A stretch of DNA of 64,000 nt from NCBI GenBank assembly GCA_029891345.1, contig CM056995.1, positions 218,888,275-218,952,274 of the forward strand, written 5' to 3'. Source of the stretch: Dryococelus australis (taxonomy: Eukaryota; Arthropoda; Insecta; Phasmatodea; Phasmatidae). The position numbers and the translations under genes were made by a program. Positions 22,231 through 50,049 of this stretch are shown piece after piece. The notes beneath the pieces are model-generated. The model made no database searches. It was not told the origin of the DNA and saw only the letters and a list, made by a program, of their open reading frames with translations. Position 1 is the first letter of the stretch; each line of letters starts with the position of its first letter.

Positions 22231-22232
22231 TT

Positions 22233-22859: not shown

Positions 22860-22869
22860 ATGGAAAATC

Positions 22870-23764: not shown

Positions 23765-24120
23765 CTCAATTTTCACTGAAAAATCGTGATTTTTGCTCCA
23801 AAATCAAGTTTTTTTGCTACAAAATAATGATTTGAAATGTAATAAATTAAGCATTATAAAAAAGCAAGCAAATTTACTCCAAAATCAAGCATTCTTATCT
23901 CGAAATAAAGTACATTTACAACTTTTTCAAAAATGCCCGAGCAGGATTTTTGCCACCTTAAAAAACAAGCTACTTTACCCCATAACCAAGCAAATTTCAC
24001 GCTTTTCAAGCAAAATTTTAACGTTTTCTAGAAATGACAATTATGCAAGCAAATTTAGGATAAAATCAAGAAAATTGAAGCAAAAATCAAATGAAAATAT
24101 TAAATATAATTGATAGAATT
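23765..24120. repeat. Degenerate CAAAATCAAGCA-type tandem repeat
   Basis: Irregular units of the type gctccaaaatcaagca recur about ten times between Gypsy element B and the virus-like locus. The plus-strand open frame at 23793-24113 is low-complexity and not a gene. Confidence 0.6.
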
Positions 24121-24157
24121 TATAGATTTTTTCAACAAAAGCACAACACCAATAAGG

Positions 24158-24418
24158 TTATTTAAAGTCTAAAAATAAAGAAAAATCTGAAGAATAGACA
24201 TTACTGATTCCATAATCCCAACCATCACAGCAATCCAAATCATTAACATCATCTTTAAAATTAGAAAATTTATTTGATCTTAGATCATGTTTATCGATTA
24301 TTAAAACAATTTTGAAATGAACAATATCCAATTCTTTATCAATGGGAGTTGCTGTTTTTATAATTTCATATCCAATATCCCAAAGTTGTAAAAAAAAAAA
24401 AACTATAATTAGATCCAT
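24158..24418 (-). pseudogene. Virus-like downstream frame, right copy
   Basis: Open for 86 codons with LWDIGYEIIKTATP, DKELDIVHFK, DLRSNKFSNFKDD and CDGWDYG. Its relative at 1740-1960 (+) has more stops. It lies directly behind the capsid-like frame and may be its C-terminal domain. Unknown function. Confidence 0.4.
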
Positions 24419-24599
24419 TTAACAAATTTAACATTTAAAAATTTATATATAATGTATAAAAAGTGATAACATGAGGAAATTTTAATTAGAAATATTATTA
24501 TTTATTTGATCAAAAATTCTTAACACTTTTAAATGCAACCACTCAACGATGAGTCTAAAAAATTGTATTAAAATATCGAAACAATTTCTTGTTTCTGCA

Positions 24600-25190
24600 A
24601 AATATTTTACACCATCCACTTAAAAAAATTAAAAATTAATATATCTTCAGTGATATTTTTTTCAAATAATCATAAGTTAAAATTCGTTGACTAATTAAAA
24701 CAGCATTACAAACTGTACCTGCCTCAACGGCTTTTTTAAAATCTTCACTAATTTCTATATTTCTTTTATCTTTAACTATTGCTGTTTTTCTACAAAGGTC
24801 TTCGCCCCCAAAATTAATAATAATTGATATCACCATGATAATTTGTAGGTGACTTATAGTAAAGTTCATTATTTCTATATATAGTATCTAAACTTGTTCT
24901 AGAATTTCTAAAGTGATTAAAATCCAGAAACATTTTAAAACAAAGATCAATATTATCTAATTTTTTGTATTTTGCCTCATCTCCAACTTTATTACTTTTC
25001 AGTAGGCGATATTCTTCCAAAACATAAGCATCGTTTGGAAAGAAAAGCCATCACCTATGGGAATATCAATCTCGATTATATTATTGTAAATATTTAAATT
25101 CCCTCTAGTTTGATAAGTTGGGGGGGGGGGGGGGGGAAGTTTATCTCTCAAAACTCTCAATGATTTTATAACTCATTTATAAGTAAAAGA
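24600..25190 (-). pseudogene. Broken virus-like capsid-type gene, right copy
   Basis: Shares with the 258-1500 copy the Tyr-x-Leu-leu-Lys-Ser/Asn-Asn start (25020), the LCFKMFLDFNHFRN helix (24935-24910), a NYHGDINYY strand, GGEDLCRKTAIVKD (about 24810-24770) and EAGTVCNAVLISQRILTYDYLKK (about 24720-24660). The whole central part seen in the left copy at 545-1100 is missing, so this copy is internally deleted as well as frameshifted. A run of C (minus strand; G at 25121-25137) has expanded just upstream. It follows the two HGIPW genes on the same strand. Confidence 0.5.
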
Positions 25191-25409
25191 AAATATATAT
25201 AAGTGATGAGATGAGTAATCATTCATTTCTTATAGGGGGCTAAATGAATGAAAAACTTACAATGAAAAAAAATCTTGTTATTTCATTTAGCTATTTTTAT
25301 ACATATATATTTTGCAAATACATTGTTTCATTTAAGACAAAAAATATATTTATTTGCATATATATGTGTGTGTGTATTCAAAAACAGATCTATTTACACA
25401 ACACAATTA

Positions 25410-26063
25410 TTACTTTTTTACACAAGAGTTGTTATACCGAGAATTACATTTTCTGACAAGATAGTTCCCAATAAAATCTTCATTTGCAAGACAACATCTT
25501 TGTTGATATGCACTTGGATTATAAAAACCACAGGTGGCAAATTCAATTGGAAATTTGAAAGTAGCTATTACGAGTTTCTCAGCAGACACTCCCAACTGCA
25601 GCAGAAAGTGTATTTTTTTAGCACCTCTCACGACAATGATTTGGATCCAACTTTCGCTTACGATTTTGAGAATTGTTTCAATGTTAATCATCTGATGATG
25701 TTCATTACTTGGAAGACTCCAAGGTATGCCGTGTATTTTCTGGTAGAGGTACAAATTTTGCCAAAAATCACCCAAAATGCTTCTATGTGGGTGTGATAAT
25801 GGAACTGGTCCTTGGACATGAGTCATGTAAATACCCTTTTTTGTAGCACATCCTAATTCTAGTGGAATGTTTTCACCAGAATAAACACCAAGTTGAATGT
25901 AGACGACCATCGTTTTATCCAGTTCCAAATCCACTTCATCCATAGATGATATTTTGATGTAGTTAATTTGTGGAATTTCGTTCAAAGTTGTTGTTTGATT
26001 GAATTTTTCTAGAAATTCTGGCGATGACAAATCTTCTATGGTAGCTTCTTTCCAATAGCTCAT
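25410..26063 (-). CDS. HGIPW-signature protein, candidate DnaQ-like fold, copy b
   Basis: Open for 217 codons, the longest unbroken frame of the virus-like locus. In order it shows ENIPLELGCATKKGIY, HVQGPVPL, an IHGIPWS signature (about residue 113), IIVVRGAKKIHFLLQLG, then CGFYNPSAYQQRCCLANEDFI near the C-terminus. From memory of uncharacterised invertebrate proteins with the same order, I suspect a DnaQ/RNase H-like exonuclease fold. The strand where a first catalytic Asp would lie reads Val-Val-Tyr, so it may be inactive or structural. The tail CC plus later Cys/His could bind zinc. The start was chosen at the first Met of the frame (26061-26063). Copy a, upstream on the same strand, is shorter and broken. 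Confidence 0.55.
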   Translation of the reverse strand: MSYWKEATIEDLSSPEFLEKFNQTTTLNEIPQINYIKISSMDEVDLELDKTMVVYIQLGVYSGENIPLELGCATKKGIYMTHVQGPVPLSHPHRSILGDFWQNLYLYQKIHGIPWSLPSNEHHQMINIETILKIVSESWIQIIVVRGAKKIHFLLQLGVSAEKLVIATFKFPIEFATCGFYNPSAYQQRCCLANEDFIGNYLVRKCNSRYNNSCVKK

Positions 26064-26279
26064 CTCGTCATAGTCCTTTGTACACTCCTGTGGGGATTGC
26101 GTTTGTTCAATGCCCAGTTCGATACAAAATGAGTTTTTGTGTTTGCCTTATATATACACACTTGTTTATGCACAGTAAAAAAAATTATTTATTGTAATCT
26201 TCCATTGCCCTTTTCACATCTTTACTAGTTAGATCCCAAATCAACCAAACTATTGGTAGGGCACAGGCCCAAGACATTT

Positions 26280-26665
26280 TTTTTTAGAATGGCATTGGCA
26301 AATTTTTCCAAGTCCATTTGAAACGTTCATGTGGCAAATTATTTTCTTCCTGGGTACTATCATTTTTTTCGTAATTATCTAACCTGCTCTTCATTTACTA
26401 CAATTATGAGTTTAATCCAGGCTTCCTTCAAAATTGAACAAACTGTTTTGAGTTTGACGTTTTTCTCGTTAATTTTCCAGGGTATTCCATGCTCTTTCAT
26501 GTACAAATTACGATGTTGTTCAAGATCATTAGACATACTCTTTAACAAATGTATGTATGGAACAGGTCTAGATATATACAAAATGTTTGGCCCTTGTGTA
26601 GCATATCCAAACTCCAATGGATATTTTTTTTCTCATGATATCTGCCAAATTTAAAATCAACAACT
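26280..26665 (-). pseudogene. HGIPW-signature protein, copy a (broken)
   Basis: The minus strand begins in one frame with VVDFKFGRYHEKK, then shifts at an A-run near 26630 to LEFGYATQGPNILY, SRPVPYIH, EHGIPWKI and EAWIKLIIVVNEEQV, then meets a stop at about 26375. It is clearly paralogous to 25410-26063. Unlike copy b it keeps an Asp in the first strand (VVDFKF). The C-terminal Cys-rich part is not recognised. Two adjacent paralogues suggest an old tandem duplication inside the virus-like element. Confidence 0.55.
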
Positions 26666-26675
26666 AAAACAGAAG

Positions 26676-27095
26676 TTAGATTAATATTTTGCAACACTTG
26701 CTTTTTTCTTCTAGCCTTTTTCTACTCAGAGTATGTTTTTTGACCTCTTCACTAGAGTCGCTTGAAGACCCTGAACACCCCTCACTACTGTTGGTACTAC
26801 TTTGTATTTTCCTTTTTAAAATAATTTTTTGTGCTTCCTTTATATCAATGTCTTGTTCTTCTTTTATATCAAACTTTTTCTCTTCTTTTATATAAGACTT
26901 TTGTTTTCTCTTCATCAGTCGAATGTACCTTTCCTTCTTCGTCACCAGTGTCAACATCAGTATTCCATCTTGAACGCTGTACATGTTGTTGATAATGTCT
27001 CCAGTAGTCTCTCGAAGAGGATTGTATGGGTTCATCTTAAAGTTTACCATTAAAAGGTTGTAGTTGATGCTCTTTAGGATCAGCTCCATGTTCAT
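26676..27095 (-). CDS. Charged, serine-rich protein of the virus-like locus
   Basis: 139-codon frame. The N-terminal half resembles a small folded domain (NPLRETTGDIINNMYS). The C-terminal half is a Lys/Glu-rich repeat (KEEKKFDIKEEQDIDIKE) followed by a serine-acidic patch and a basic tail. It ends immediately before copy a of the HGIPW gene, in a different frame, and could be its N-terminal extension. No function is recognised. A nuclear or DNA-binding linker role is possible. Confidence 0.35.
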   Translation of the reverse strand: MNMELILKSINYNLLMVNFKMNPYNPLRETTGDIINNMYSVQDGILMLTLVTKKERYIRLMKRKQKSYIKEEKKFDIKEEQDIDIKEAQKIILKRKIQSSTNSSEGCSGSSSDSSEEVKKHTLSRKRLEEKSKCCKILI

Positions 27096-27300
27096 TAAAC
27101 ATCTTGTTGAAATAATAACTCATTGCTGGAAATAGTCAAGGTAGTTATCACTTGGAAACTACACATTCATTGCAATAGTCATTGCAACTGCACGAATGAC
27201 TGCTCTGTGATTTCCGATGCCTATATAGATATGACAGTACGAAAAAAAAAAACAAGTTTTTTATAAGACAAAAAACCAACTTTATCATGTATGGAATTAC

Positions 27301-27302
27301 TA

Positions 27303-27364
<62 letters not shown>
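27301..27364. repeat. (AT)n microsatellite
   Basis: Pure AT dinucleotide run with one interruption near 27309. Frames across it are artefacts. Confidence 0.97.
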
Positions 27365-27367
<3 letters not shown>

Positions 27368-27559
27368 CCATTTCTAAAACTCGAGTTTGCCAAAGAGCTC
27401 GTGACATCGCCAAAAACAATTTTAATATTTTCAGCATTATACACATTATGTAGTACTTTGTTCTTATTGCAACACATTGAAGATTCCGATGGAATGTTTT
27501 TATGGGCAATTGAATGTTTATTGCATTAGTTTCGTAATAAACAGGAAAAAATAACATCG

Positions 27560-27733
27560 ATGTATATTTTAAACATAATTAAAGACCAATACGTACGTCA
27601 TCCAAACGACATGAAAAAAAATATCTCTATGGTGATTGACGTTCTCAACAAGTGGTCGGCTTTCGTTGTGACCATACCCGAATATGGCGAAACTTTAATG
27701 ACTCCCGAAATGCATAGGGGTGGACAGGTTTGA
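27560..27733 (+). CDS. Short frame at the start of the plus-strand viral block
   Basis: 57-codon frame from the ATG at 27560 to a TGA at 27731, containing DMKKNISMVIDVL and FVVTIPEYGETLMTPEMHR. It reads as real protein rather than low complexity and begins the plus-strand gene block. It is either a small gene or the first surviving piece of the primase-helicase. Unknown function. The 27740-28350 interval after it has only short frames. Confidence 0.3.
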   Translation: MYILNIIKDQYVRHPNDMKKNISMVIDVLNKWSAFVVTIPEYGETLMTPEMHRGGQV

Positions 27734-28369: not shown

Positions 28370-29200
28370 ACGATTTACAAGGATAAATGTATGAAAAAAG
28401 ACTAGGGCTATTTTTTTTGGCATGATAATGCGAAAAGACTATTTTCGAAAAAAGAACTTCGAGAAGAATCACTGATGCGATTAGTACTTGAAATACACAA
28501 ACAAAACTATGAGAATTAGCAACAAATGACCCAAGATAATAGAGAACATTTATCATTGCTCGAATTGTGTTATTTTGAAAAAGGTTCTTTTCTCAGCTGC
28601 TTCAAACATGTCAATACAATATGCTTATATGATGAAAATTCTAATTACGAATGGATTTGCAATAAATTAAAAAATCTCCTTTTTTCTTTAGGACATTGTT
28701 GTTTAATTTCCTCCCTCACCTTTTGTAAAATAAAATACAATTTTTAAAAAGGTATTTTTTACCAGCATAACATTGTATATAAGGCGAAAAATAAATTGTT
28801 TTCTCCCAGTCAAACACAAGTCTATTTTTTTTGGACGAGACCAACGAATACTTATGGAATAATCTCAACTATTTGTATTCTGCATTTATGGCATGAGAAT
28901 ACGGCCCAAATTATTTTCCTCGCTTCGATCAACATTTATGTCTTGTACTTGTTTGTAAGTATTCTGATATACGTCTTATTTCGCGAAAAGGATTATTAAC
29001 TCGAGGGAAATGGACTAGGAGCAGGAACATTTTGGGAAAATTATCAAATGCATTGAGGAAATTAACCGAGTAACTGTCGATACGAATCTGGATCGCATAA
29101 TAATGAAACTCATCAGCCAGTATACAGCAAATGAGATCGAAACAAAATCATCCCAATTGTCGGATCCAGTGAACTCGGTAAAATCACACTGCAGGAAATT
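28370..29200 (+). pseudogene. Decayed frames before the primase motif
   Basis: Protein-like pieces in changing frames include DLQG near 28375, EKRTSRRIT near 28450, the 28526-28747 frame (CYFEKGSFLSCFKHV, NYEWICNKLKNLLF), and 29025-29130 (IIKCIEEINRVTVDTNLDRI). They point the same way as the primase-helicase downstream and probably represent its N-terminal region. Stops and shifts every 50-200 bases show advanced decay. Confidence 0.35.
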
Positions 29201-30370
29201 TTGCCCTTTGGTTACAATCTTATGTTAAAGTGTATATTTGCTCATTGTTTGAAAAAAAAAAAAAAAAAAAAACAATGTGGAGCAGAGTACAATTTTGGGC
29301 TTGTTGCACAAAAAAATAGTTTGGCTTACCAACAAATAGTCTTGGACTTTGACATCGACAAGGAACACAATTTAGACTCATATAAAGAGAACCTCATTTG
29401 GCACGATTGTGTGTTTAAGTTTGTCGAGAATGTTAATGCAGTCACGTTTCTATTTTACGTCTAGGGGATTGTCTGGTGACACATTGGCCCGAAAATGCCA
29501 ACTTTCACCTAATTCTACACATAGTGAAGGATTTTTTTAAATGTACATGTATTTCTTGCCATCTTTCTCACATCTACTCGTGATCAAACCAGGAATTGGC
29601 ATTAAAGTGTGTGTTAGACAATCCAGCACAGAGTTCCTTGCCCACTATCCGTGATCACATTCCTGAATGGCAGAGCACGTGTGATAATTTCAAAAAATAG
29701 GTCCCATCAATATATGGACTCTAAAGGATGAGCTCGTGTCTTTTGTTCCCTTTAATGATCCCTTCAAGGAGGCGAAGCCATTGTAGTTTCCACAACTTGC
29801 AATTCATAGTGAGAAATTTTTTCTTTAAAACTCGATCGGACCGATGAATATGTCAGATGTTATACGTTCATTGATCAGGTAATCAGGCATACGCGAAATG
29901 ATGAATCGATAGTGCCAAATGACTGCAGGTGCAAATGGGAAGCAAAGTTGGTGGTTATTGCGAGGAAGGTTAGGTAAAGTCATTCATGGGATCAACTGAG
30001 CACCGGTTTGGATTTGAATATATCACTATGTATTTTGTTGTTTATTTGATGGAGAAATTACTCACAAAATTGAATCTAAATGGAAGTGACGATGAGAGTG
30101 TAATTACCCACATGTATGAATTGTATAGTCAGCATGATCGAGACAAATTTTCAGCTTGAGAACAACCAGTTGAAGAATGCTTTGTTTAACATGGAAAAAT
30201 TGGACATTTCATACGACGTCATCTTTTCTGAGTACGCATTGGGAAGTGCCAAACATCAGGTTCCTTTTTATGTCTGTGAAGCTCACCGCTTTAGTGGAAA
30301 TCAATTGTATGTAATTGATTGTTTCGAGGAGGCGATACAACAATCCGACATTGACTTTGATCATTAAAAG
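29201..30370 (+). pseudogene. Primase-like region of a viral primase-helicase
   Basis: The frame 29201-29464 carries IVLDFDID at 29336-29359. A hydrophobic strand with Asp-x-Asp is the catalytic motif I of archaeo-eukaryotic primases. In the next frame THWPENANFHLILHI (about 29480-29518) matches the following His-containing strand of that fold. A later piece, 30116-30367, includes ISYDVIFSEYALGSAKH and YVIDCFEEAIQQ. Such primases make primers in NCLDV-type and related viruses, often fused to an SF3 helicase, and one is found about 3.1 kb downstream on the same strand. A long A-run at 29251-29270 and several stops break it. The call rests on motif order; alternatives are few but a search is needed for proof. 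Confidence 0.5.
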
Positions 30371-30733
30371 GAATATTTTATGCTTGCACTCATAGGTGGC
30401 TTATTGGCTGAATATTCAAACTATTTTTACATGGCCTATGCTTTCTAGACATGTTATTGCAAAGCAAATAATATCGAAATTAGAATCATAAACATCATTG
30501 TTGAAGTAAATTAATGGCGGTACAAGTAGATTTTGGGTAAGACACGACGGTGATGGCAAGATCAGCATAAACAAAAATGTTCTAAAAATGGATCGAAACA
30601 AAGTAGAGACAAAGAATATGACTATGAATGTGAATACAATGCAGATGAAGACTATCCTCCTCAAAAAGGGTTAAGTGAATCTGCATCATTGGATATGTTT
30701 AAAGAAAATTACAACTAGTTCATCTTTGTTTTA

Positions 30734-31789: not shown

Positions 31790-32570
31790 TTGTCGATAGA
31801 TGCTCATTGTCACAGCCAGATCATCCCGAGTCCGGTTTTTGAATATTACCATTGTCAAGTTAAATGTCCACAATGGGTGATGGAAACCGAGCCACTCAAT
31901 GAGGATAATTTAGTATTTGTGGTGCAAAACATAAAGTTTGGAGATAAAGGACAGGTCAAATCGCCCATCGAGCTAACCAAGTTCGAGGAAGTATTCGTAT
32001 GTAATGCGTTCGTCATATTTTCATGGTTATTGCGTATCAGGTTTCACAATTCCTATGCATATGGACTTGTTTTTTCGATATTTACATGAAAATTGCTTCG
32101 AAATTTACAATGACATAAAACAACTTGCTATCAAACATGTTGACCAACCCATGTACATGAATCATGTAAAGGTCCTTGCTAATTTACTGCGATCATTTTG
32201 TGAAAATTGAGTTCACATTCCTGTTCACATTGAGCCAAAGATTGAGTGGTGCCATCTCAAATAACTATACAATTGGTACAAACACTTGAACGTCTACCAA
32301 AGAGAGTACCAAACCACATCTGAAGAAGACTTGTTACTCATCAAATTCTTGGATCACATGTATATTGAATTTACATCCATGATTTTGTATGGCCAATTCA
32401 AAATGTATTTGATAGTTACTCTAATGAAGTTTATATCATCTTTAAATTTTCGATGTAATCATTTGCGGAATTCCCTGGTATTTTATGGTAAAACTGGTGT
32501 GGGAAAAAACATACTTTCAGATATTTTTTTGAAGCCACACAAAATGGGATTACGAGCCATCTCGTATTGA
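31790..32570 (+). pseudogene. SF3-type helicase region of the viral primase-helicase
   Basis: Frames 31790-32089, 32004-32210 and 32286-32570 chain by shifts. The first has HCQVKCPQW and a Glu-rich strand. The last has a helix (LIKFLDHMYIEF), then NSLVFYGKTGVGKN at 32472-32510. GKTGVGK preceded by a hydrophobic strand is a Walker A loop of the SF3/D5 style. The final residue is Asn where Ser/Thr normally coordinates magnesium. The arrangement primase then SF3 helicase on one strand within about 3.3 kb matches the D5 type of replicative proteins. A Walker B was not securely found in 32570-32880, which is badly broken. Confidence 0.55.
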
Positions 32571-32886
32571 ATTTGGCCAAGATCTAACACAATGATCACG
32601 ATCCCCTATCAGTTGCCCTGAGTTACATCATGTGTGTATGCATGCCGACTGCTTAAAAGTGTTCTGTAACACAGGATGTATGCCCACAAGGTCCATGTAC
32701 TCAAACAGGTCGTTCGAATTACAGATAACTGCTAAACCTATTAATATCAGCAGACAATGCTTTCGTTCATGGACATGTCCATGATGGGTAGATTACTTCC
32801 AATTATAAGTTTCGAATATGTTCAGTTCCCAATAACCTGCTAGTCTATCGCTTGCTTGTCAATGCAGAACTTGGAATCACAGCAAA

Positions 32887-33929: not shown

Positions 33930-35480
33930 TTATACTTACCCCTTTCCTTCTGCTCTGGGAGAAAAAGTGTGATGTTTCCATGTTCAGCTCTCGTCGTTGA
34001 GTGACATCCTTTTGTCAGATTCTGCCACAATATAAGCTAAACCGAAAGGCAGGAAAGTGAGGGGAAAAGAAATACTGCACTCTGATTGTTTGCTGATGGT
34101 AGGAGTATGGTGGTGGAAGAAACTTATCCAAACATCGACTTGGATTATGACATCACACAAAAGTATGTGTTGTAGCCATAGTTGTTTACTTTAGAGACAT
34201 ATTACAATAATGTGCAGTGTAACAACAGTAGTTTACTTTCAAGAAAAACTGCAAGCATGTGTGTTGTAATCACCTTTGTTTAGTTATGAGAAAAATTATT
34301 GTTATTAAATGCCAAGAAAAATGTTGAGTGAATTTGAATTTCCCCACTCCTAATTTCAACAATCAATCATTTTGCAGCATTTCATATCCCCTCTCTGCCT
34401 CTCCTTCCTATTTGGGCTATTTGGTGGCAAAATCTGTAAAAAAAAAAAAAAAAGGATGTTAGTCTGAACATGGAAACATCTCACATACTCCCAGAGAAGA
34501 TTAGAAAGCAATAAGTTTAATAATAATAAACCATATAAAATATAAGTATTTTATATCGTATATATTATAAATTTAACTTATAAAATAATAAGTTTTTAAA
34601 TGTATATTTATTATTATACATGCTGTATTCCTTTTTCTCTGCAGTGGAGGAAGGTGGATGTTTCTCTATCCAGCTCTCACCATTGACTGAAGTTTTTTTT
34701 TTTTTTTTTTTTTTTTTTCATATTTCTCTGCCATACAGGCAAACTCTGAAGAGTTGAAGGGAGGGGAAATGAAATAGTGCTCTCTGATAATTTGTTGAAA
34801 GTCTAAGTTGTGCAGGGGAAAGGAATGTCGATAACAACACACTCTGGTAACATCTCATAGAACTAACCAAGGCTAACACAACTCATCCAAAGTTAAATTA
34901 TTTTTCACTTCACATTTACAAGACACATTTACAATACTAATTAATTGTCTATGGACCAGACACACACATGAAAGTTTTCTCTGAACTAAACTGACTTGTA
35001 TAGACTTTACACTGTCCTCCACTCCTTGCAAGATAAATTAATTTGAATTCTCCCCACTCCTAATTCTAACAATCAATCACATTACAGCATTTCATTTCCG
35101 GTCCCTTGCCCTCTTCACAGTTTGCCTACATGGCAAAGAAATCTGTAAAAAAAGACATCAGTCTATGGCAAGAGCTGGACAGAGAAACATTGGCCTTCCT
35201 TTACTCCAGGGCAAAAGGAATAAGGCAAGTATAATAATAAAAATAGTAAATATACCTTATATAATATAAGTATTTTTTTAGGTATATATAAGGTATATTT
35301 ATTATTTTACTTATACCTTTCCTTCTGCTCCATGATAAAAAGTGATGTTTCTATGTTCAGTTCTCACCATTGAGTGACATCCTTTTCCCAAATTTCGCCA
35401 CCATATAGTCCAAACAGGAAGAAGAGGAAGAGAGGGGAAATAAAATACCACAATGCTATTGGTTATTTAAAGTAAGAGCA
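33930..35480. repeat. Alternating inverted repeats (chained foldback units)
   Basis: A forward arm (ccttctgctc..gatgtttccatgttcagctctc..ttgagtgacatcc..aggaaagtgaggggaaa..) occurs at about 33940-34090, 34625-34800 and 35320-35470. Inverted arms occur at about 34340-34510 and 35040-35220. Between arms sit AT palindromes such as 34520-34620 and 35228-35325, and T/A runs (34441-34454, 34686-34717). It may be a foldback transposon that has tandemly duplicated. The sequence has no coding content. Confidence 0.75.
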
Positions 35481-36029
35481 GGTGGGAGAGAATTTGTGAT
35501 GGTAGAGTATTCTGGCATAATTGTGTGGAACTAAACAAACTTAACCATGGGTCCCTATCTACATGATATATATTCTAAGTTTGTCTTACAAAATCAATCT
35601 TGTATACTAATTACATGTATAGAGCCCAGTTGATAAGTTTGTTTATTTTCATGAAGTTTTGTCAGAGTTATCCACAATCGACAATTCTTCCCCCACCCTT
35701 ATTTCACTTTATTCATCAACTAATCAGTGTACACCAGAATCTCACTGGTGTTAGTTATTGTGCACTAAAAGACTGACCTAAAAAACATGTCCCATTCTGC
35801 TGCTGCATTGACGACTGTCACCATATTGACTAGAAATGTCTTATGCAGGTGCATGTCTCCTTCATGTCTTGTTTGTATGGTCATTTTCCTTGTATTGTGC
35901 GAGGAAAACCATTGTGATTCACATTACTGGAATATAGTTTCGCAATAGCCATTGGTGTTAGTTGGTGATGAGGGAGCCAGCACATTACGACATTACTTCC
36001 TACAACAGACAGTTACAACCAAATTTTAG

Positions 36030-37230
36030 ATAGAGTAAGTAAGACATTGCAAACATGAAATTTTTTAGTATTGAAGAATTTTTTACACTTTTAAGTTATT
36101 CATGTATTTTCACCACAGTATATTTGGATGTTTATAATCAATATTAACCATATGGGACCTTGCATATATGAAATATTTGTATTATTAATGCATTTCACAC
36201 ATTAAAGTTATTCATGCATTTGCTCCACAGTATGTCTGGACCTTTATGATCCATATAGACAATGTGTGACCTTGCAAACATGAAATATTTATATTATTGA
36301 AATATTTTTACACATTAAAGTTATCCTTGTATTTACACCACAGTATATCTGGACATTTATAATAAATATTGACCATGTGCTACCTTGCAAACATGAAATA
36401 TTTGTATTATTGTAGTATCTTTACATATTAAAGTTAGCTGCATATTGACAACATGAAATCTTGCAAATATGAAATATTTGTATTATTGAAGGATTTTTAC
36501 ATATTAAAGTTATCATGTATTTACACCTCTGTATATCTGGTAATTTATAATCAATATTGACCACATGTGATCATGCAAATATGAAATATTTGTATTGTTG
36601 AAGTGTTTTTACTCATAAAAGATATCCATGTATTTGCACCACCGTATGTCTGGACATTTATAATCAATATTGGCCACATGCAACCTTCCAAACATGAAAT
36701 ATTTTTTTTATTGAAGGATTTTTACACATTAAAGTTATCCAGATATTTACACCGCAGTATGTCTGGACATTTATACTCAATTCTGACCACATGGGACCCA
36801 AAAACATGTAATATTTGTATTATTGATATGTTTTCAGACATTAAAGTTATCCATGTATTTGCACCTATATATTACTGTACATTTATAATCAATATTAACC
36901 ATGTGCGACCTTACAATCATTAAATTTTTGTAATATTGAATTATTTTTAAACATTAAAATGGTCCAGGTATTTACATCACAGTATGTCTGGTCATTTATA
37001 ATCAATACTGACCATGTGGGGCCTTTCAAACATGAAATATTTGTATTATTGAAGTCCAAATGCACTGATGTCCAGACACATGGGAAATGTTAAAGTGTTA
37101 AAATACTGAAATAATTCAAATATTTCACGTTTGCAAGGTCCAATGTGGACCTCATTAATGATAAAAGTTGAAACTTGCTGATGTCCTAACATGTGGGTTA
37201 TTTTAAGTGTATAAATATTTTAGGTCCCAT
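36030..37230. repeat. Satellite of ~113-bp monomers with an orientation switch
   Basis: The unit accttgcaaacatgaaatatttgta recurs near 36041, 36155, 36271, 36383, 36459, 36570, 36682, 36798, 36909 and 37020, giving ~110-116 bp periods with one short (~76 bp) unit. After about 37060 two more units appear in reverse orientation (for example atttcacgtttgcaaggtcc at 37122). The open frame at 36603-36923 simply reads through the repeat. Bases 35480-36030 before it hold nothing recognised. Confidence 0.9.
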
Positions 37231-37309
37231 GTGTACAACTTTAATTGTTGTCCAGATGGGATTTTAAATATGAAATTGATTTACTTCTACAAAATATATT
37301 TAAAAACAA

Positions 37310-37490
37310 GATTTTGCTGGCTGCTCCTTATTAACAACATGATGTGGCACCTGCAGCCCAGAGGCTCTGATGGCTGACCTGCTCTCTTGAGGAGAGATAG
37401 AGGCTATGCCTTTGGGAGGCTTTCTTCCCAGCACCAGAGCATGGTGCAATAATGTACCATTTCAGTAAATAAGTGAATTTATTTTAGAGG
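37310..37490. other. Isolated GC-richer island in AT-rich DNA
   Basis: About 180 bp with cagcccagaggctctgatgg and gaggagagatagaggc stands out from the surrounding AT-rich DNA. It directly follows the satellite and could be a SINE or other dispersed repeat. No tRNA-like box pair was found by eye. Confidence 0.3.
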
Positions 37491-37499
37491 AAATAAAAA

Positions 37500-40400
37500 A
37501 TAACTTGAGATTTATTTAATATATATATTATTTTAAAAAACAAGCTATTGAAAATATAATTGGTTGAAATAAACAAAATACTTTTATGTAAATATATTTT
37601 ATATTATTTAAAAAATGGAAGTTGTATTAATATTATTTTACAATTAATTTAAAACATCTTTGGTGCTATCTCTTGGTGAATATATGATGCTACTTATATT
37701 CATATTGTAGCAAAGAATCATTTTACTACTTGTCAATATTGCCAACATAAAAAGAAGTAATTTCACTGCAGTTGCAATAAAATTCCTCCCTGTACAACTT
37801 TCTTTTACTTTATTATTATAATTATGTGAAAAAATGTGCCTGGCCTAGATAACTAAGTTTGTAAAACCAGAAATATAATTAATCTCGAAAAAACAAAGAA
37901 AATAGTGAATAAATATGCCTACAAACTTATTAGAATAAAAAAGTATCTAGACTCCACAAACTTACCAGTCAAAAAACACACATGCATATTAATGTCGATT
38001 TTAAGGAACATTTATTGTATAATTTAGATAAATATAGTGGTCATATAATTCGAATATATTATGATGCATAACTATTTATAAATCTATTTACACTTAGGAA
38101 AGTAAACTTCATTGAATATTAATAATGACCCTATATTGACAAGTTAGGAACCCACTTAATTGTTTGGATAACAACAGGGGTGTAGTACCTTTCATATTAT
38201 AATAGGTTTATAAAGAAGATCAAATAGTATATATATATATGAAATGGTCTCTTGTATTGATTAATTTCCAATAATTTGTAGATTAACTATAAAAAAAAGA
38301 TTAGTTATTTTTGTAAACATCAACAAATACATCAAACAAATTATTGTAAATATATCTACTCTGTTTATAGATAAAAAATACAATTTTAATTTATTTAATA
38401 CTTTGTACTTAAACACCTCATGCTATCTCTTGGTAAACAATAAGTTGTAATAATTATAACATATTTTTCTATTTTATACTTTAAGAAGCATTTTCCATTA
38501 AGAACACTTGTTTTGACGTAAGTAGAATGAACTAATTTACTCTTTATAATATAATATGTTTCACAAAAAATTTAATATTTGTTAAAGATGTTTTACTAAT
38601 CTCACACCACCATCAGTGACAAATGACAATAGTTTAACTAGGCATCTGTGAAGGAGATAGTAATTATTATCCAAAATGTCAGGTTCTGCCTGCTTGTTAA
38701 CATTATTTGGTTCTGTCAAAGACTTACATTTACCAATGAGTTGACAAATTTACACTCGTTTCTGGTAATCATGTGACATGCACTTTTTCAGTTTTCAGTG
38801 TGCTCCAAGGGGAGGATTTATTCTAAGATATTTGTTTCGTTTCTTCTCGCCAATATTATTTGCTATTACTCGAATTTTTGTTCACTAATGAAAGAAGCTA
38901 TTCTAAGCACATTCAAGTGTTTGTTTGACATCACTATTTCCGCTAAGAAACTCAAAATGATAACAAACCCTTTTATCCTTTGTTGCTGAGCTTTATTATA
39001 ACAAACTTGCCTGGTGTGTGAAACAAATTGTTTTTTGGAACTATGTGCCTTCAGATATTATATGAACATAAAAATGTATTTCAGAAAACTATTTTAAAAG
39101 TACCAATTAAAAATTTTGTTTTAATTGATGAACTATTTAAGCAGCAGCATAAGCTGGTTATTGTGAGGCATTTATTAGACTATTACAGTTGTTTATGATG
39201 AAATAAAAGATCATGAACACTATTTTTTTTATGCTTTGAGCAATGTGGTTTGTAAATCACATAATAGGTATTTCTAAACTGTAAATAATACTCAGTAGTT
39301 TACAACCATGATGCTTTCTCTTGAAAGTAATTGAGACAAAATTCATATTCTGATATAAATACAATCGACAAGAAACACAACAGTGTCTAGTTTGTTGTTC
39401 ACCACTTATATTATAATCTGTTTATTATAAATAACAGAGGAAAATGCTTGTTTGTAAATTGCTTGCATAAAAACAGCAAAACATTTATTGAAAAAAATCT
39501 TCAGGTATGTAACAATCAATGTTATATGTGTGCTCTCTCTTAACAGCATGCATGCAAATTTATTTGAACTCAGTATAATTGAAATTAACTCATATTTATG
39601 TGTAATACAGCATATGTTCAACCAAGTTATAGAATAGTATAATGTCGTCACCAAATTTCATATACTTGACGAGTCATACTTCTATATTTTAATTTAGGGT
39701 TTTATATACCAAAAAAAGAAAGAAATGTTTTAGAAGTTACATTTATTTTGGTTACATAACCATTATAATACACTACAATTTACAATAACAATCATTTTCA
39801 CACACATATATATATAGTATTTTTTGCATTGGTATTCCTCCACTATACATGTTTAGAAAATGTATTTTCCTTTGGTCGAATTGGTAGACATCCACTTATT
39901 GTCTTGTGTTCGAGACTTTTCCAAAAGAATAGCAAATATTGGTAATAAGATTGATATGATGCCCATGGTCAAAAATCTTTTCAGTTAAGAGGCAGAAAAA
40001 ATATGGCGAAGGAAATACACTCCCATCATCCATTGAAAATAACTTTTTACCCTAGCCATAGGAATTTACCAGATCCAAAATATCGTCTCTACTCTTTGAA
40101 CAAATCAATTCTTCTTTGATAACCTGCTTCTGCTGCACCAAAAATGAAAGATCATGAATTGCCTTCATCCTAGATGAATCTTATGTTGTAGTTGATGTCG
40201 GCAAACAAAATGGCAATATCTTTGCATAGATGTTTGTTTAACAAAACAGTAAAACTGCTGCAAATAACATTTTTGATCTTGCTGGTACCATCCTTATCAT
40301 TTCACAACATGCTTTGTTATGCTGGCTACTGAAACTGCCCATGTATTTATAGCTGGAAGTGTGTTACAAATTAAAAAAACACCACAAACTGTGTCTTTTT
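37500..40400. other. Long AT-rich interval without recognised gene
   Basis: Contains a short duplicated theme (tgctatctcttggt at 37663 and 38419) suggesting two diverged copies of an unknown repeat, and a few frames (38798-38989 +, 39406-39654 -) with no domain. Between 39900 and 40400 the minus strand reads like broken protein in several frames, possibly another lost viral gene, but I could not name it. Confidence 0.45.
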
Positions 40401-40420
40401 TCAATTATTTAACATGTTCT

Positions 40421-40690: not shown

Positions 40691-41179
40691 AATTTAAAAT
40701 GAAAATGTTATTGTTAATGACGATGCCAAATGTTTGATGTGATTGGCAATTACAATGTTATAAGCTAAAAGGTTTCTTTTTTTTATTTATAATATTTTGC
40801 CAATTGTGGTAGATATAGTTGGCTAATATGAGAATGGTACCTATGTCTACTTGCCTATTTAATACATGTATCGAATGAAGTGTAATAATCTTTCCATTCC
40901 ACCCACAGGGTCTTTACATCCACCCATTTGTAGTTCATAGCTTGAAAAGTTTATTTGTTTACATACAAGAAGCTATATAGGTATCCATTGATAAAGAAGT
41001 GAAAAAAACAATGAAAAAAGAAGTATGATAGTGTGAGAGAGGGGGGATGGAAAACGTTTTAAAAAATCTCCTACAATGCCATGTATAAAAGACTGTATTG
41101 TTACTAAAACTACCACAGTTCCCGAGGTACTCATTCCTCGAACTTCAAAGAGTCAGCACAGTCTATTGAGTCTGGAAGT

Positions 41180-41860
41180 ATGGATTCAAAATGGTATGCT
41201 AGTAAGGACTATGTAAAAGAGTTTATTCACACATATGAAAAACACCAAGCTCTTTGGAACAAATATAAACAGATGTATAAAAGCACACATGCAAAGTATA
41301 AGGGATTTCGAGAATTAGTTGCATTAGTGTATCGAGAACATGATGTAGAATAATACACCATTAGTAGATGGATAAAGTCGTTATGGGATTCCTACATTAG
41401 AGAGTGGAAGAAGGTAAAATATGCAAAGAAGTATGGTTGTGTTCGTGTACCAACACTGTGGTACTTTAATCTGATGAAATTCATTCAATCTAAATAACAG
41501 GGAGAGACACATTCGACCACGATGGGTGTGGAAGATGTAGGGTGTGTGATTGTGAACAACACATCCATCAAACATGGAATGATGAATGACAACACCATCT
41601 ATTTACCCATGTCTGTCAATGATGAGGTAGTTGACAATGCCGTCCACACATCTGTCAACAGTGGGGTTGATGACACTGCAGTCGATACATCAAGCAATGG
41701 TGAGGTTGGTGACACTGCACTCAATACATCAATCAACGACGAGGTTGGTGACAACACAATCGACTTGTTCCTAAACAGCAAGACTATGGACAATGTAGTC
41801 AATGATTTCAACAGTGAGACTGGGAACAATGCAGTCGTCACAACCAATACACCCATATAA
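41180..41860 (+). pseudogene. MADF-domain DNA-binding protein with 13-residue repeats
   Basis: One continuous frame runs from the ATG at 41180 to the TAA at 41858, apart from two in-frame TAA codons at 41351 and 41495. The N-terminal ~105 codons form a MADF (Adf1-type Myb/SANT-like) domain: FIHTYEKHQALWNKYK, FRELVAL, SRWIKSLWDSYIREWKK, then VPTLWYFNLMKF. The C-terminal 112 codons consist of about five ~13-residue repeats of the type DTAVDTSSNGEVG. MADF proteins bind DNA as transcription factors or partner transposases. Here the gene sits between viral replication genes, so it may be a captured regulator. Only two stops and no frameshift suggest it decayed later than its neighbours. Confidence 0.7.
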
Positions 41861-42214
41861 CACATCTATTAGAGATACAATCAAAACGTCCATCAATGGT
41901 GAGGTTTTTGAAATATCAGTTTTTTGTTATGAAATTGAAAAAAAAAAAAAAAAAACTCATGCGAATGGAACCTTCACAGAAGAGTTACTCAAAATCAATT
42001 ATCAACCATGAAGAAGATGTGGGTTTGTCTAAAGGATGGTCAAGTAGAGCCAGATATAGTATTGCTCTTTAAAAACTAACGTCATATGTATATTATATCT
42101 TTATAAAATCAAATGTTAACGAATTAAAAAAAATTGAGTTTTTATTTGTATTTTATAACAATTAATTTTCTCATCATTTATGAATCACTTGTTGTAAATT
42201 ACACATTCACTAAA

Positions 42215-45200
42215 TTATTTTGGAAATCTCCCATTTGCAATATCAAAATGCACTTTGTGTTCTGTTAGATAAAATTCATTTCTTTCAAACCATTTTTTAA
42301 ACAATTCATTGACCGTTTTTGTGTTGGTTTTTATGGAAGTCTGAGGCATGGCTACATTCAAAATTGCAAGTATGACTTTTACATAATTGCGTATATATTT
42401 ACCATAATGAATCTGATACATTTTGGGCTGTGGCACATTATTTTTTGTCTCTGTGGTAATTTGGAATACTTCTCCAAAGTTAAGTATTGATCTGCCTGAC
42501 AGTCTTCAGGATCGTACAAAAGCACAGTTTTCTTACGACCAATGTAGGAAGAACCGACACCATCAATGTACCTTTGACATGCAGATGATTTTTTTAGCCT
42601 AACCAACTTTACATTTTCGTACAATTCCGTTTGATCTATCAAATAGAGGTGGTTGTAAATAGCAAACAACACATTTTCGAAATTGAGGAATTTTTCCAAT
42701 TTATAACAGTTGGTTACTTTGGTCATATTCGCAATGAAGAAAAGTGTAGCGACATAGTTGTAGATTTGTTTCACGAAATGCGATGCATTGTGTTCGTAAC
42801 CTTTATGAAGAATAGAACAATGTTTCAACACATCTTGGTTTGGATTACTGCAAAATATACTTTAGTCAATCAGTTTTGTCAAATATAAGTATTTTTTCTT
42901 CACTAGTGAATTGGATGTATCTCAGTGCCTTCAAGAATGATGCCCCTTCCATTAATTATGCTCATTTACTCGTTTGTGAGTTCGATAAACCTGTTACTGT
43001 CCAATTTCAAAATATTTGTAAATTGATACCCATCAGTATCTGCATCTAAGAGTATTTCGCAATACTCTCGCAGAATTTTGCAAACAACTGTATGTAGTTT
43101 CGCCTCGATGTACACATCAATTTTTAATTTGCTTCCCGCTTAGAGTAGGTATCGTAGGCATATTGATGAATGAAATATACCAACTGCATGAGCTCCCCTT
43201 CCATCAGGTTGTTTATTGTTTCTTTGTGATCACGAATCGCGTGCAGTAGATACAGCATGTGTGTAACATGACATAAATGTATGAGAAGTTTGTGTGCAAA
43301 CAACATCTTGCCTATGGCTGTGGGAATGCTGACAAACTCCAGAGACTTATTATTTTTTTTTGCATTTCAGACTTTACAGATATAATTTGCTTCTTTACAG
43401 TTTTCCTATGGTCGAGTAAAGATTCTATAAAGTTTATGGTGAATGAAGTTTTGGCATGTGAGAGTAAACAAATCAGAATGGGAGTATCGCCAGCCAACAA
43501 CTCTAATTCTGTGACGGAATGTATCATCTTCCCTATAGGCTGGCCTGAATATATCAGGTTCGTGTATTCAGAATAATTTTGTTATTTGTCTTCTTCACAT
43601 TCAGAGTAATTACATCATTCCCACACATTTCATCGAACACATCGTGGGATATCAGAGCATTTTCAAACACTAGATTCAATGCTTTGGCGAAACAACAACC
43701 GACAGTCGATCTGGAAAGTCGTTTGTTGATGATGTTTAGGAAAAAACTATCGAAGTTATATTTAATAAGTTTCCCAAAAAAAAACATTGTTTACAAACAC
43801 CACAGCTCCAGGATATTCTTTTTTCGTGTACTTGAACTTTGGTTTGGTGTAAATTGGTCTAACATCCATCGTGGACATTCTTTCAGCGAGCGACAAACAT
43901 TTCAAATCGGGTATGGCCAGTAAAATGGAATCATTTCTCTGGTATCCTGGTAAAATACCAAAGGATAGTGCATGATACAGGAATGTGTTCACAATCCAGC
44001 GAGAAATGGCTCTAATCGAACTGTCTTCGAGACTGAAGTTAAAGGGATTGGCTAATTGGTTGGTGAAAATTGCCAAATTAAATTTGTTGTAAAGTCCGAC
44101 CATGGGCATGCAATTCCTCCTGTAAATTAAAGCCTGCTTCTTGCAGTAGGAAATGATAGAGTCTATGTTTGTTTCACCTGCAAGTTTACGCCAAATGCTA
44201 CCACCAATGTACTCGGTGTGGCGCACTTGCATTTTTGTGTATTGAGCATTCACTACATCAAACTTTTATTTGTTGTAGGGCTCGATGGGAAAGATATTTC
44301 TCATACATTCATGACGAATCTCATCGTCTGTAATGGTGTAATCTGGAATAAAATAAATTCGCAAAACCACAGAGTTCAAATCGATTTTCCTAAACTTTTG
44401 GCTCGGAAAGTTTTTAGATAAGTTCCCCAAAGACAAATTCCCACTCCCCAATACATTTTTTCAAGATTGTCAATGTATCGAGTATGATACCATCGCAGTG
44501 AAAACAAATGAGCGGAGCTGTGGCTAATTTTCAGAGGGTTACAAATGCTCTTATTTCACGTTGCATATTGAGAACCCACAAGCAAGTCAATAGGAATTTC
44601 AAATTGTATTCGATGATGTTGTGGACGACGAAATAATGTGGGTAATTTTGGTATCCCGTTAGCGTTTTCAGCAAGTATTCCTGACTATACCAAAAGAGAA
44701 AATTTGTCATAAATCCTCTTCATGTGAGAAAGCTTGGATCCAAATGCATTTCGCTGGCAGTATTTTGCATTTCCTCAGCATTTCCACATCGAAATCATCG
44801 GACATGCAGCGACATTTTAGGTACGAAATTATACTCACTTCGACATCTAGATACAATAGATCCCAAACATAAGCAGTTTTTCTGGAGCGACACCCCCCAG
44901 GGGCAAGTCTTCCAAATTATCCACACCAGTCTCGATGTCGAAGCTCATGACAGGACTGAACATGTACAGCGGAGTGTAACTGTAAGACATCTCCAGGATC
45001 AGATGCTTAGATTCGGTGACTGCGTACACACCATTTGCACGAAATATATTTTTCACCATGAGGTTACCGATTCCATATATCGGTCTGCGAAACTTTAGTT
45101 TTGCAAGTTGATTCCTTTTAATTAATGAATTTTGCAGTATCCTTCTGAAGTTACAGTATCGATGTACACCTCCATTTGCAACATGAGAAGCACATCAGTC

Positions 45201-45453
45201 GACTGGATGGTAAAGTAGTATGTTCTTTACAATTATTTTCCACGAGAAATTTGTAGACTGTGTTCAAGTTACTCGTGGTGAGAAATTCAATTTTTACTAA
45301 ATGATATGAAACGTATAATGTGCTTGCCACATTTTGAGTCGAAATTTCCAACAACGAGTTTGAATTAGTCTCCAGAAAGATTCTCGTATCGACGATTGAA
45401 TCGATATACAGATCATATAACTCAATCAGCAGTTGGCACACTTCATAATTCAT
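42215..45453 (-). pseudogene. Family B DNA polymerase, virus-like, broken
   Basis: About ten frames chain along the minus strand over ~3.24 kb (~1,080 codons, usual for viral family B polymerases). In order: MSFDIETG, the Exo I motif (Asp-Ile-Glu codons at 44939-44931); HNIIEYNLKFL near 44623-44590, the Exo II position; YCKKQAL at 44148-44128, the Exo III position; YNFDSFFLNII at 43760-43728, motif A; LLDHRKTVKKQ at 43418-43387, the basic helix before motif B; and DADTDG at 43046-43029, motif C. The C-terminal frames (42831-42379, 42436-42215) include IGRKKTVLLYD. The order proves the family. Several catalytic residues differ (Asn in Exo II, Gln in Exo III, Asn in motif A), partly from decay. 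Motif B was not found intact. It would replicate the element's genome. I cannot tell baculo/nudi-, nimavirus- or other-type from sight. Confidence 0.85.
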
Positions 45454-45645
45454 GTTTTCAGCAACTAGAAAGTATTTCGAGAGGGGTTAAGTCAAGATTG
45501 ATTTTTTAATTCCTATCATTTTGACATCGCTGGCCACCACATTTATCTGATTGTTGTAATGGAAGACCTCAATATAATATGTTATTTTGTAGATTTAAAG
45601 AACTTAAGAGGGCTAAAATGTATTGTTATATAAGAACCTTCAGTC

Positions 45646-45864
45646 ATGGCTAACAAACCAAGTTTTACAATGACCAGAGTATTGGAAATATTCAAAAATA
45701 TCTACAACGATCCCAAACTGCAAACTTTGGACAAATTAAAACGGTTTTACGTGTATTTTGGCAACAGTCTCTTGGAATGCATTTACACTCACGAAAATGA
45801 CGATGACAAAGACTCTGATGAAGATTTCAAAGAGTACTTAATAACAATACTTACATTCCATTAA
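45646..45864 (+). CDS. Small acidic-linker protein of the virus-like locus
   Basis: 72-codon frame from the ATG at 45646 with two amphipathic helices (VLEIFKNIYNDP, KLKRFYVYFGNSLLECIY) and an acidic DDDKDSDEDF tail. The next frame (about 45882-46001) continues with KDYLYAKQRSSSRTF and QLILLQLLLSQ, so a frameshift near 45860 may divide one ~115-codon protein. It is divergent from the polymerase, with about 190 bp between them. Not recognised. Confidence 0.4.
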   Translation: MANKPSFTMTRVLEIFKNIYNDPKLQTLDKLKRFYVYFGNSLLECIYTHENDDDKDSDEDFKEYLITILTFH

Positions 45865-46099
45865 AGTTTAAAGATTTTTAGGCCAAGTTCCCAAACACCA
45901 CACTCAAAGACTATCTATATGCCAAACAACGCTCGTCCTCCCGCACTTTTGAAATTAACTCGAAAGATCAACTAATTTTGCTACAACTACTACTTTCACA
46001 ATAAGACCATCGAGGGAACAGTGACTCTTTATTTACCTAGTTGTAAACAAAAAAAAAAGATATGATTAATTGTGTTTCCTTTGCAGAAAAAAAAAACGA

Positions 46100-46820
46100 A
46101 ATTTATGGCTGACATCAGCTTTCGCTCAAGTGAAAGTACAAAAATGCTATTCATGAGTCATTACACAGCTGCTCCCTGATTTATGATTCCAACCAAACCA
46201 CAATGTAACACACATATCATTCAGTGGGAATGACAAGGAACAAGGACGACACTCCTCTATTCACGAAATTGAAATTACACAATGTGTTTGTATACGAACA
46301 TAATCGCAGATCTATTCGAGGATCGGTCAAAGTCTCAATACTGTCTAATGCCATATCTTTAAACGAATACTTGACATCACCATTGAGATTTGTCCATTTA
46401 GTTGATAGCCTACTCCAATCGGGAGACTACATATACAACCAGTTTAAAGGTACATTAGTGCAAAAAATTTAGCCGATATATACTTTCTACCTAAATTGGA
46501 AAACTTTGATACTCTGTTTTTCAGACTGACTTTTTTCACTCATATGCAGTTAGCTGGAGAAGTGTATTCTTTCACTTGCTCGATATTTATGCGGGAAATA
46601 TGAGAATTGAGTTCACCACTTCTGTTAAAAACGAAAACTGCTACATCGTGCGGCATAAGACATTTTGTCAAACGACCAGCTCATAACTTGGCATGTTCAA
46701 TCAAGAGAACCGTGCACACACTTTACCAAATGCAAGTGACTTTCAATGTGTTCACATTACCATAAATTCTGATACAACAGGACAGAGTCCAGCCCAAGTT
46801 CACTAATCATGAATGCAAGT
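46100..46820 (+). pseudogene. Unrecognised viral frame series
   Basis: Pieces in shifting frames: MADISFRSSESTKMLFMSHY near 46105, the 46224-46472 frame (DDTPLFTKLKLHNVFVYEHN, SLNEYLTSPLRFVHLVDSLL), then FFRLTFFTHMQLAGEVYSF near 46520, and TLYQMQVTFNVFTLP near 46720. The hydrophobic strands and consistent strand suggest a single ~200-codon structural-type protein, possibly a minor capsid protein, but this is speculation. Confidence 0.35.
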
Positions 46821-46868
46821 TGTAATCATGTTTTACAAGCTCAGATAGAAAATATTGGATAAAAAGAT

Positions 46869-47063
46869 ATGGCCAAAATATATGAAAATTCTTGTTATTT
46901 CGAATCTTATTTGATACTAGCTTTTTACAATGTATTTGGCCGTTCCAACAAAATGCACACTTTATTTTGCTTGCCAAACAATTTCTTAAATTCAGTTTGG
47001 TTGAATGAGTTTAAACACTTTATTCAACATCAGAGAGACATATTATTTCTGAAGGTAATGTAA
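46869..47063 (+). other. Short unassigned frame
   Basis: 64 codons with YENSCYFESYLILAFYNVFGRSN. It follows the previous series on the same strand and could be its continuation or an independent remnant. No domain. Confidence 0.2.
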
Positions 47064-47164
47064 AAAATATAACCATTTTTTTAAATAAATAAAATTTATT
47101 TTAAAAATAATATATGTATAAAAACATAAAAAAATTAAAAAAAATTATATATATATACATTCGA

Positions 47165-47840
47165 AATGTATAAAATTTATAAACTCCAGACTTTTCAAAT
47201 TTCCACTCATCAGGACCCCGGCCACCCACCCCACAATATCTAATTCTTTTGCATGGCCTTGCTTTGAAAAAATCATCTACACTTTGTGAGTAAATACAGT
47301 GTAAACACTTTTCCCACACCACTTTACCCCTAGCACAACCCCTACATGGCTCAAATTTGGTTAAGAGCCACGGTTGAGATTGTGGTAAGGATTGGGGGTG
47401 TGGGTAATGTAGTGGTAACCGCCGCTGCTGAGTGGAAATTTGAGTCTGGATACAGTCAAAACATTTGTCTGCCCATGCCACTGTTCATGTATCGCATATT
47501 ATACATTTTGGGACTTCAATAAGTTGGGGTGATTGGAGTTGGCGCTGTTTCTTAAGCAGCTGCCCCTCGACCCATTGCTGTTGCGGATTTTGGAGCTGCA
47601 GCAGTGGCTGTTGTGGCTGGGTGAGAGGCCGGGGCCGCTAGAGCTGCTGCTGGGTGAGGGATTTGCGCCACTGGAGCTGCTGCTGGGTGAGAGGTTTTGG
47701 GCCTCTGTGCGAAAGGCTCCTATGGCTGGACGAGGGATAGCTGCTGAAGTTGTAAGAGGATATAGTTGCTTTCCGGTTCCTCTTTATCGCCTTTTCCCCC
47801 AACATTGGCTGGTAAATATGCTGTGAAAAAAAAAGAAACA
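47165..47840 (-). pseudogene. Gln/Pro-rich protein with four CxxC pairs
   Basis: The minus strand starts with Ser/Arg-rich sequence and LTQQQLQW-type Gln repeats (47841-47638; trinucleotide-like gctgctg on the plus strand). It continues in another frame through Gln/Pro-rich sequence to KCIICDT, meets one in-frame TGA near 47490, then runs WADKCFDC, a second Gln/Pro stretch, FEPCRGCARG, WEKCLHCIY and IRYCG. The four CxxC pairs look like one or two zinc ribbons. A nucleic-acid-binding or transcription role is plausible but unproven. It is the last protein-like unit of the virus-like locus before the LINE. Confidence 0.45.
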
Positions 47841-49992: not shown

Positions 49993-50049
49993 TACCAGGC
50001 CACGACTCTTACCATTCACCTACAACTCTCACAAAACATGAAGACTAAT

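Follow-up and report, generated by a model that had tools for sequence, protein, structure and literature searches.

A broken copy of a probable multi-copy endogenous naldavirus in a 64,000-nucleotide stretch of the Dryococelus australis genome

We analyzed a stretch of 64,000 nucleotides from Dryococelus australis (C3:218888275-218952274), referred to below as the window, in which an initial annotation had described the fossil of a large virus-like DNA element with its own polymerase. The window probably contains one broken copy of a multi-copy endogenous naldavirus, which we infer to have multiplied in the genome as a giant transposable element. This reading builds on a colinear copy of the element on another contig, on virus genes located in other copies, and on the linkage and variation of the copies across the genome.

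A colinear virus-like element in the window

Searches within the genome covered the assembly of 3,415,067,245 bases in 646 contigs, and the loci that were read are given L numbers (L153, L165-L172, L178 and L181-L187). A locus on contig C17 (L166, L167 and L153) follows the order of the window, from position 48416 down to 25207. The colinear pieces cover 19,706 of the 23,210 bases (85%), with 74-85% identity in the long pieces, and no such piece in that orientation falls in the window outside 25207-48416. The match takes in the DNA polymerase, a MADF piece, foldback repeats, a primase/helicase-like gene and HGIPW, a gene named after the motif in its product. The polymerase, HGIPW, MADF and primase/helicase-like genes constitute one colinear unit of more than 20 kilobases (kb). 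At its right edge (48416), the element meets a long interspersed nuclear element (LINE). Past the 25207 point, other HGIPW copies run on into different sequence that is common to them, and the left edge in the window is therefore a breakpoint of this copy. The features of the element are as follows.

25207-48416, no strand, endogenous virus element remnant, colinear with the C17 loci L166, L167 and L153
25413-26147, minus strand, HGIPW gene A, open frame of 245 amino acids, motif site at 25719-25733
26378-26632, minus strand, fragment of HGIPW paralogue B, second HGIPW motif at 26477-26491
29135-29461, plus strand, primase-like (AEP) piece with LDFDID, by motif only, colinear in L167
32265-32781, plus strand, SF3-like helicase pieces, by the motifs Walker A and motif C
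34347-37055, no strand, foldback repeats and a tandem array of 113 base pairs (bp) inside the element, by repeat comparison and the L167 match
41108-41350, plus strand, MADF-domain gene piece, PF10545 with E=4.5e-4 in one of 55 pieces, placed by reading the motif
42218-45486, minus strand, broken family B DNA polymerase, by motifs and by PF00136 with E=9.6e-6 in the colinear copy
44928-44945, minus strand, polymerase motif SFDIET, read in the window
44594-44629, minus strand, polymerase motif VVHNIIEYNLKF, read in the window
44128-44151, minus strand, polymerase motif SYCKKQAL, read in the window
43795-43815, minus strand, polymerase motif YPGAVVF, read in the window
43728-43760, minus strand, polymerase motif YNFDSFFLNII, read in the window
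43023-43046, minus strand, polymerase motif DADTDGYQ, read in the window

The gene content described in the initial annotation was partly confirmed. The family B polymerase motifs were all located, in order on the minus strand, as were the sites of both HGIPW paralogues, while the primase-type Asp-x-Asp and the SF3-type Walker A lie together on the plus strand under labels that are motif-only. The MADF gene, identified by its PF10545 match, is also present in the colinear copy (73% identity at the corresponding place in L166) and is thus part of the element. The CxxC protein on the same list was not identified. The proposal of a single large element of more than 20 kb holds for the polymerase, the primase/helicase-like gene, HGIPW and MADF, as seen in the C17 copy, and fails for the capsid-like gene. 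The limits of the element are 25207-48416 instead of the proposed 24100-47840.

In a library of 5.8 billion proteins, the 108 candidates included no match to the HGIPW protein, and no relative was found in IMG/VR (in a scan that reaches close relatives only), Pfam or PHROGs, making it a gene family without a relative in the four collections searched. The foldback repeats are common to L167, with colinear matches at window positions 35345-36065 and 37016-38130. The 113-bp tandem array is mostly specific to the window, and L167 holds about one unit at that place.

Naldavirus genes in other copies of the element

A gene-dense block beyond HGIPW is common to all three copies fetched (L168, L169 and L170), each with gaps; L169 matches L168 over most of 12-7787, and L170 matches over 6-212, 2698-7976 and 9834-10000, with 86-89% identity. 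In each of the three copies, HGIPW is adjoined by a stretch with PIF3 and matrixin, and a stretch with BRO-N is present in two of them. Protein families were identified with Pfam. PIF3 was identified in L170:958-1359 with E=1.8e-13 (51.3 bits, as compared to a cut-off of 22.2), and Bro-N in L168 with E=3.2e-20. The matrixin match in L168 lies just below the cut-off (4.9e-5), the best in the batch scan being 1.8e-14, and the matrixin piece had no match in PDB. A LEF-9-like match lies in L170:8740-9348 with E=3.5e-6 (26.3 bits, just below the cut-off of 27). In a scan of 45 pieces, a single piece matched Ac81 (PF05820), with E=1e-14. Of the other late transcription genes of Lefavirales, lef-4 and lef-8 were not seen among the pieces scanned. 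L170 continues into L171 at 1-3301. Further matches were obtained for BIR in L171 (E=1.5e-15), dUTPase in L172 (6.8e-25) and AAA in L183 (4.7e-5), all of which are placed in the element by the continuity of one C17 copy only. Other copies match, with gaps, some 46 kb of one C17 copy, and by continuity the element may extend to approximately 82 kb.

The class Naldaviricetes is defined by the pif genes (PMC10271883), and the core list in the same source assigns lef-9 and ac81 to baculoviruses, nudiviruses and hytrosaviruses, with nimaviruses left out. On this basis, we assign the element with good confidence to a putative member of Naldaviricetes and consider it, with fair confidence, to be Lefavirales-like, that is, probable distant kin of baculoviruses and nudiviruses. 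The initial annotation had found no element that it could name with confidence, and the naldavirus genes now provide a name. Further traits of Naldaviricetes are a circular genome, an enveloped, rod-shaped particle and replication in the nucleus, whereas the element is present as fossil sequence.

A Lipase_3-like piece (L165 4878-5297, plus strand; E=3.4e-5 in the batch scan, placed by motif) lies in a block common to copies. The shared left block of the element contains an open frame of 464 amino acids (L181 5729-7120, plus strand), to which no match was tied among the 45 pieces scanned.

Copies across the genome and their decay

The HGIPW protein gave 159 matches in the genome (150 of 733 candidates scored), and a polymerase piece from a better-kept copy gave 136 (134 of 724 scored), with at least two polymerase copies each split over two matches. 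These copy numbers are lower bounds, since only the best candidates were scored. The copies are dispersed, with at least 150 HGIPW matches listed on 15 contigs. Forty of the 136 polymerase matches have one of the 150 listed HGIPW matches within 30 kb. In 39 of these 40 pairs both genes are on the same strand, with 38 of the 39 separated by 8-25 kb, and in all 40 the HGIPW match lies to the same side of the polymerase as in the window. When the HGIPW matches were shuffled along the same contigs, a mean of 0.5 and a maximum of 3 in 200 shuffles were linked (with the sizes of three contigs guessed). The initial annotation would have been contradicted by genes that were never linked elsewhere; such linkage was found, within one genome.

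The listed element matches are densest on C17, with about 20 per 100 Mb as compared to 2-12 on other contigs, as counted from the best scorers and with three contig sizes guessed.

The 20 best-scoring HGIPW copies have a median pairwise difference of 11.4% (range 7.0-16.2%), and the eight best polymerase copies one of 9.3%. In the same sets, the ratio of nonsynonymous to synonymous changes is 0.92 (HGIPW) and 0.70 (polymerase) for variants found in a single copy, as compared to 0.54 and 0.50, respectively, for variants shared by copies. Shared variants are thus more constrained than private ones, and the source therefore appears to have stayed coding while copies were made. This pattern fits repeated copying from a coding source, followed by decay.

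Evidence for the polymerase, primase and helicase

The polymerase in the window is heavily degraded, with a single frame interrupted by 52 stops over 42200-46200. Scans of 10 and of 55 broken pieces from the window gave zero Pfam matches to a polymerase, primase or helicase, and a PHROGs scan of 10 window pieces likewise yielded none of these and only two weak families of unknown function. Because unrelated families reach E-values of 0.0018-0.004 on other window pieces (DUF359 with 0.0018 on the SF3 piece, Vac14 with 0.0039), matches near 1e-3 need care. In the colinear copy, DNA_pol_B (PF00136) was identified in L166:6544-7416 with E=9.6e-6 and 25.1 bits, above the cut-off of 23. The profile check of the frames that the initial annotation had proposed thus identified the polymerase in the colinear copy, and neither polymerase nor primase in the window pieces. 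PF03104 matched the exonuclease piece of the C17 copy below the cut-off (E=0.017), and no match in PDB was obtained for an exonuclease piece of the window. The C17 polymerase piece has weak PDB neighbors in DNA polymerase alpha (E=0.007 at best) and DNA polymerase delta (E=0.08), as expected for what would be a family B polymerase of the RNA-primed type. An IMG/VR scan with a polymerase piece gave no relative. The window alone could not have carried the polymerase claim statistically; the support comes from the colinear copy.

Home-made polymerase profiles were also tried and discarded. A profile built on 25 IMG/VR proteins, the majority of them phage-like, placed the right piece at the top of 1199 with 4.6 bits, which is no better than chance, since the best of 20 shuffles scored 1.7-5.8 bits. 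A profile of 14 sequences ranked the right piece first with 4.3 bits, as compared to 5.2 for reversed pieces, and with a profile of 33 sequences it came only sixth.

The motifs of the remaining replication genes are those that we take to be characteristic of an AEP primase and an SF3 helicase. The sequence VLDFDID is located at 29339-29359 on the plus strand and reads ILDFDVD in the C17 copy. A Walker A motif, FYGKTGVGKN, is located at 32481-32510 on the plus strand and is followed by a sequence resembling motif C, TAKPIN, at 32728-32745, while the copy in L167 has, in order, Walker A (YGKTGAGKN), Walker B (CIDEL) and motif C (TAKPI). The primase piece gave no relevant Pfam match, either in the window pieces or in the C17 copy, and the SF3 piece gave no helicase profile match and only chance-level matches in PDB. 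If the motif names are right, an AEP-SF3 gene in Naldaviricetes would be unusual; the main text of a study of ant viruses does not use the word primase (PMC12548425).

A capsid-like pseudogene and other repeats outside the element

The capsid-like gene that the initial annotation had included in the element is present in the window as an inverted pair of copies about 22 kb apart, both of which lie outside the element.

203-1974, plus strand, double-jelly-roll capsid-like pseudogene, PF21738 below the cut-off on 434-898
24158-25199, minus strand, second, internally deleted capsid-like copy abutting the element, 77-80% identical to 203-1974 inverted

The copy at 24158-25199 is without the middle part. 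PF21738 matched window positions 434-898 with E=0.0039 and 16.9 bits, as compared to a cut-off of 27, and against nine loci of the element the capsid-like piece gave a best tblastn E-value of only 0.03. At least 126 loci in the genome score over the PF21738 cut-off (126 scored of 18,151 candidates), some of them without stops, and we take these to be a Polinton-like population; the window piece matched one protein of the common PF21738 loci with E=0.47 only. The capsid-like piece is best seen as a separate repeat, or part of another element, that abuts the breakpoint at 25.2 kb.

Beside the capsid pseudogene, window positions 2142-3917 contain 39-bp tandem repeats that are 67-76% like repeats at L165 2344-2808, within the Merlin-like transposon described below. 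Pieces of Ty3/gypsy type, with reverse transcriptase, RNase H and integrase domains (batch scan, placed by reading), lie at 20524-22970 on the minus strand. Copies of a non-LTR retroelement with endonuclease and reverse transcriptase lie at 48451-63463 on the minus strand, two of them 85-91% identical, and a GDSL esterase (E=2.2e-11 in the batch scan) was placed at 58401-58739.

Explanations for the spread of the element

The explanation that we favor starts from a large dsDNA virus, in the class of the baculoviruses and nudiviruses, that would have integrated in the germ line of an arthropod. A copy still making its own polymerase and late transcription machinery would then have replicated, and its DNA would have been reinserted repeatedly, after which every inserted copy would have decayed neutrally. 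The copy in the window lost its left part at 25.2 kb, beside the unrelated capsid-gene repeat, and is bordered by the LINE beyond 48.4 kb.

Several observations weigh against this explanation. The naldavirus genes sit in other copies, the window copy being truncated before them. PIF3 scores above the cut-off in L170 only; its value in L168 is 0.004, below the cut-off, and the L169 pieces gave no match. PIF3 also had no relative in a large protein library, and no further pif genes were found among the pieces scanned, leaving one pif only. L170 is without the BRO stretch. The LEF-9 match falls 0.7 bit below its cut-off in one copy only, with no score for the matching L171 pieces, and PF05094 gave no match in a whole-genome search, controls included. 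An AEP-SF3 gene is absent from the class core table of PMC10271883. The shared variants include parallel changes, the polymerase test has few counts, and the copy numbers could partly reflect segmental duplication.

The virus may instead have been moved by a transposon at its edge, a composite transposition in which an outer inverted repeat served as one end of the mobile unit and the transposase carried the virus along. In all four copies with a readable junction (L165, L181, L182 and L186), the viral sequence meets, at one and the same base, a transposon of 2.7-2.9 kb with 23-bp inverted ends (L165 1129-4065, L181 1577-4270). A DDE_Tnp_IS1595 domain (E=4e-11 in the batch scan, taken as L165:2851-4002) is attributed to this transposon, which we take to be Merlin-like (IS1595/ISXO2-type DDE). 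At the outer junction, homology begins at the same base next to unrelated flanks in both comparable copies (L165 and L181), in which the flank outside the transposon does not duplicate the viral flank on the inner side. However, the analysis reached only one end of such a unit and thus showed no partner end and no target-site duplication. Of the six places fetched for this edge, L185 and L187 did not match L165, L182 breaks off within the transposon, and the sequence of L186 has been rearranged. In L178, a virus copy carries an insertion of the same transposon end, which is the behavior expected of an independent transposon, and a search of L171, L172, L183 and L184 for another copy of the end found none. 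We therefore regard composite transposition as a possible but doubtful route. It is similarly speculative that a Lefavirales-type virus with an unusual AEP-SF3 gene became a giant transposon in an insect genome via a Merlin-type transposase at its edge, which would represent a second, independent origin of the path from virus to giant transposon that crustacean nimaviruses and Teratorn have taken.

Passive spread, in which segmental duplication and other host rearrangement would have multiplied one or a few ancient integrations, is consistent with the rearranged state of the window copy and others, and with the proximity of some matches on one contig. It seems unlikely, given that the HGIPW matches are spread over 15 contigs, that the outer flanks of L165 and L181 are unrelated and that shared variants are constrained. 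The affinity to giant viruses (Nucleocytoviricota) or Polinton-like elements, with a double-jelly-roll capsid and a D5 primase-helicase, toward which the initial annotation had leaned, would accommodate the AEP and SF3-like motifs, the RNA-primed-type family B polymerase and the PF21738 fragments beside the element. Yet the capsid is a separate repeat outside the element, and PIF3, LEF-9, Ac81 and BRO in other copies point elsewhere, so that we consider this affinity highly improbable.

Comparison with known systems

If an endogenous naldavirus did multiply in this way, a virus of the baculovirus class turned into a repeat family with many copies in an insect-type genome, the route from virus to transposable element would be testable in insects as well as in crustaceans, and the many decayed copies would represent a fossil record of a virus lineage. 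Among open-licence papers, we found none that mentions, in the title or at the start of the abstract, a naldavirus present at high copy number in an insect genome, which is weak evidence of absence. In medaka, Teratorn consists of piggyBac joined to a herpesvirus. The element described here resembles it in combining a large DNA virus with a cut-and-paste transposon and differs in the virus class, in the transposase and in that the joining is only suggested.

The Nudiviridae include endogenous nudiviruses and bracoviruses. They belong to the same class as that proposed for the element, and DNA polymerase, pif, lef-9 and ac81 are among their core genes, whereas the core list of PMC10271883 is without an AEP-SF3 gene; the element is here left without a family assignment. 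Similarities are also seen to the LGDV-type viruses and related elements of ant genomes, which belong to Lefavirales, carry pif, lef, ac81, iap and DNA polymerase genes, and are represented by integrated relatives in insect genomes (PMC12548425). The ant elements are described as having 1-37 viral homologs per scaffold and as being under purifying selection (PMC12548425). Unlike these, the element studied here occupies clearly more than a hundred sites in a single genome and has near-neutral private changes.

According to Kawato et al. (2023, PMC10871703), the endogenous nimaviruses of crustaceans are giant transposable elements that have acquired different integrases, one lineage having a Ginger2-like DDE transposase and 46-bp inverted ends. 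They share with the element large naldavirus genomes that multiplied in the host genome. They differ from it in that lef-9- and ac81-like genes were found here and are not listed for nimaviruses in PMC10271883, that the copies read here are broken, and that the transposon beside the element is Merlin-like.

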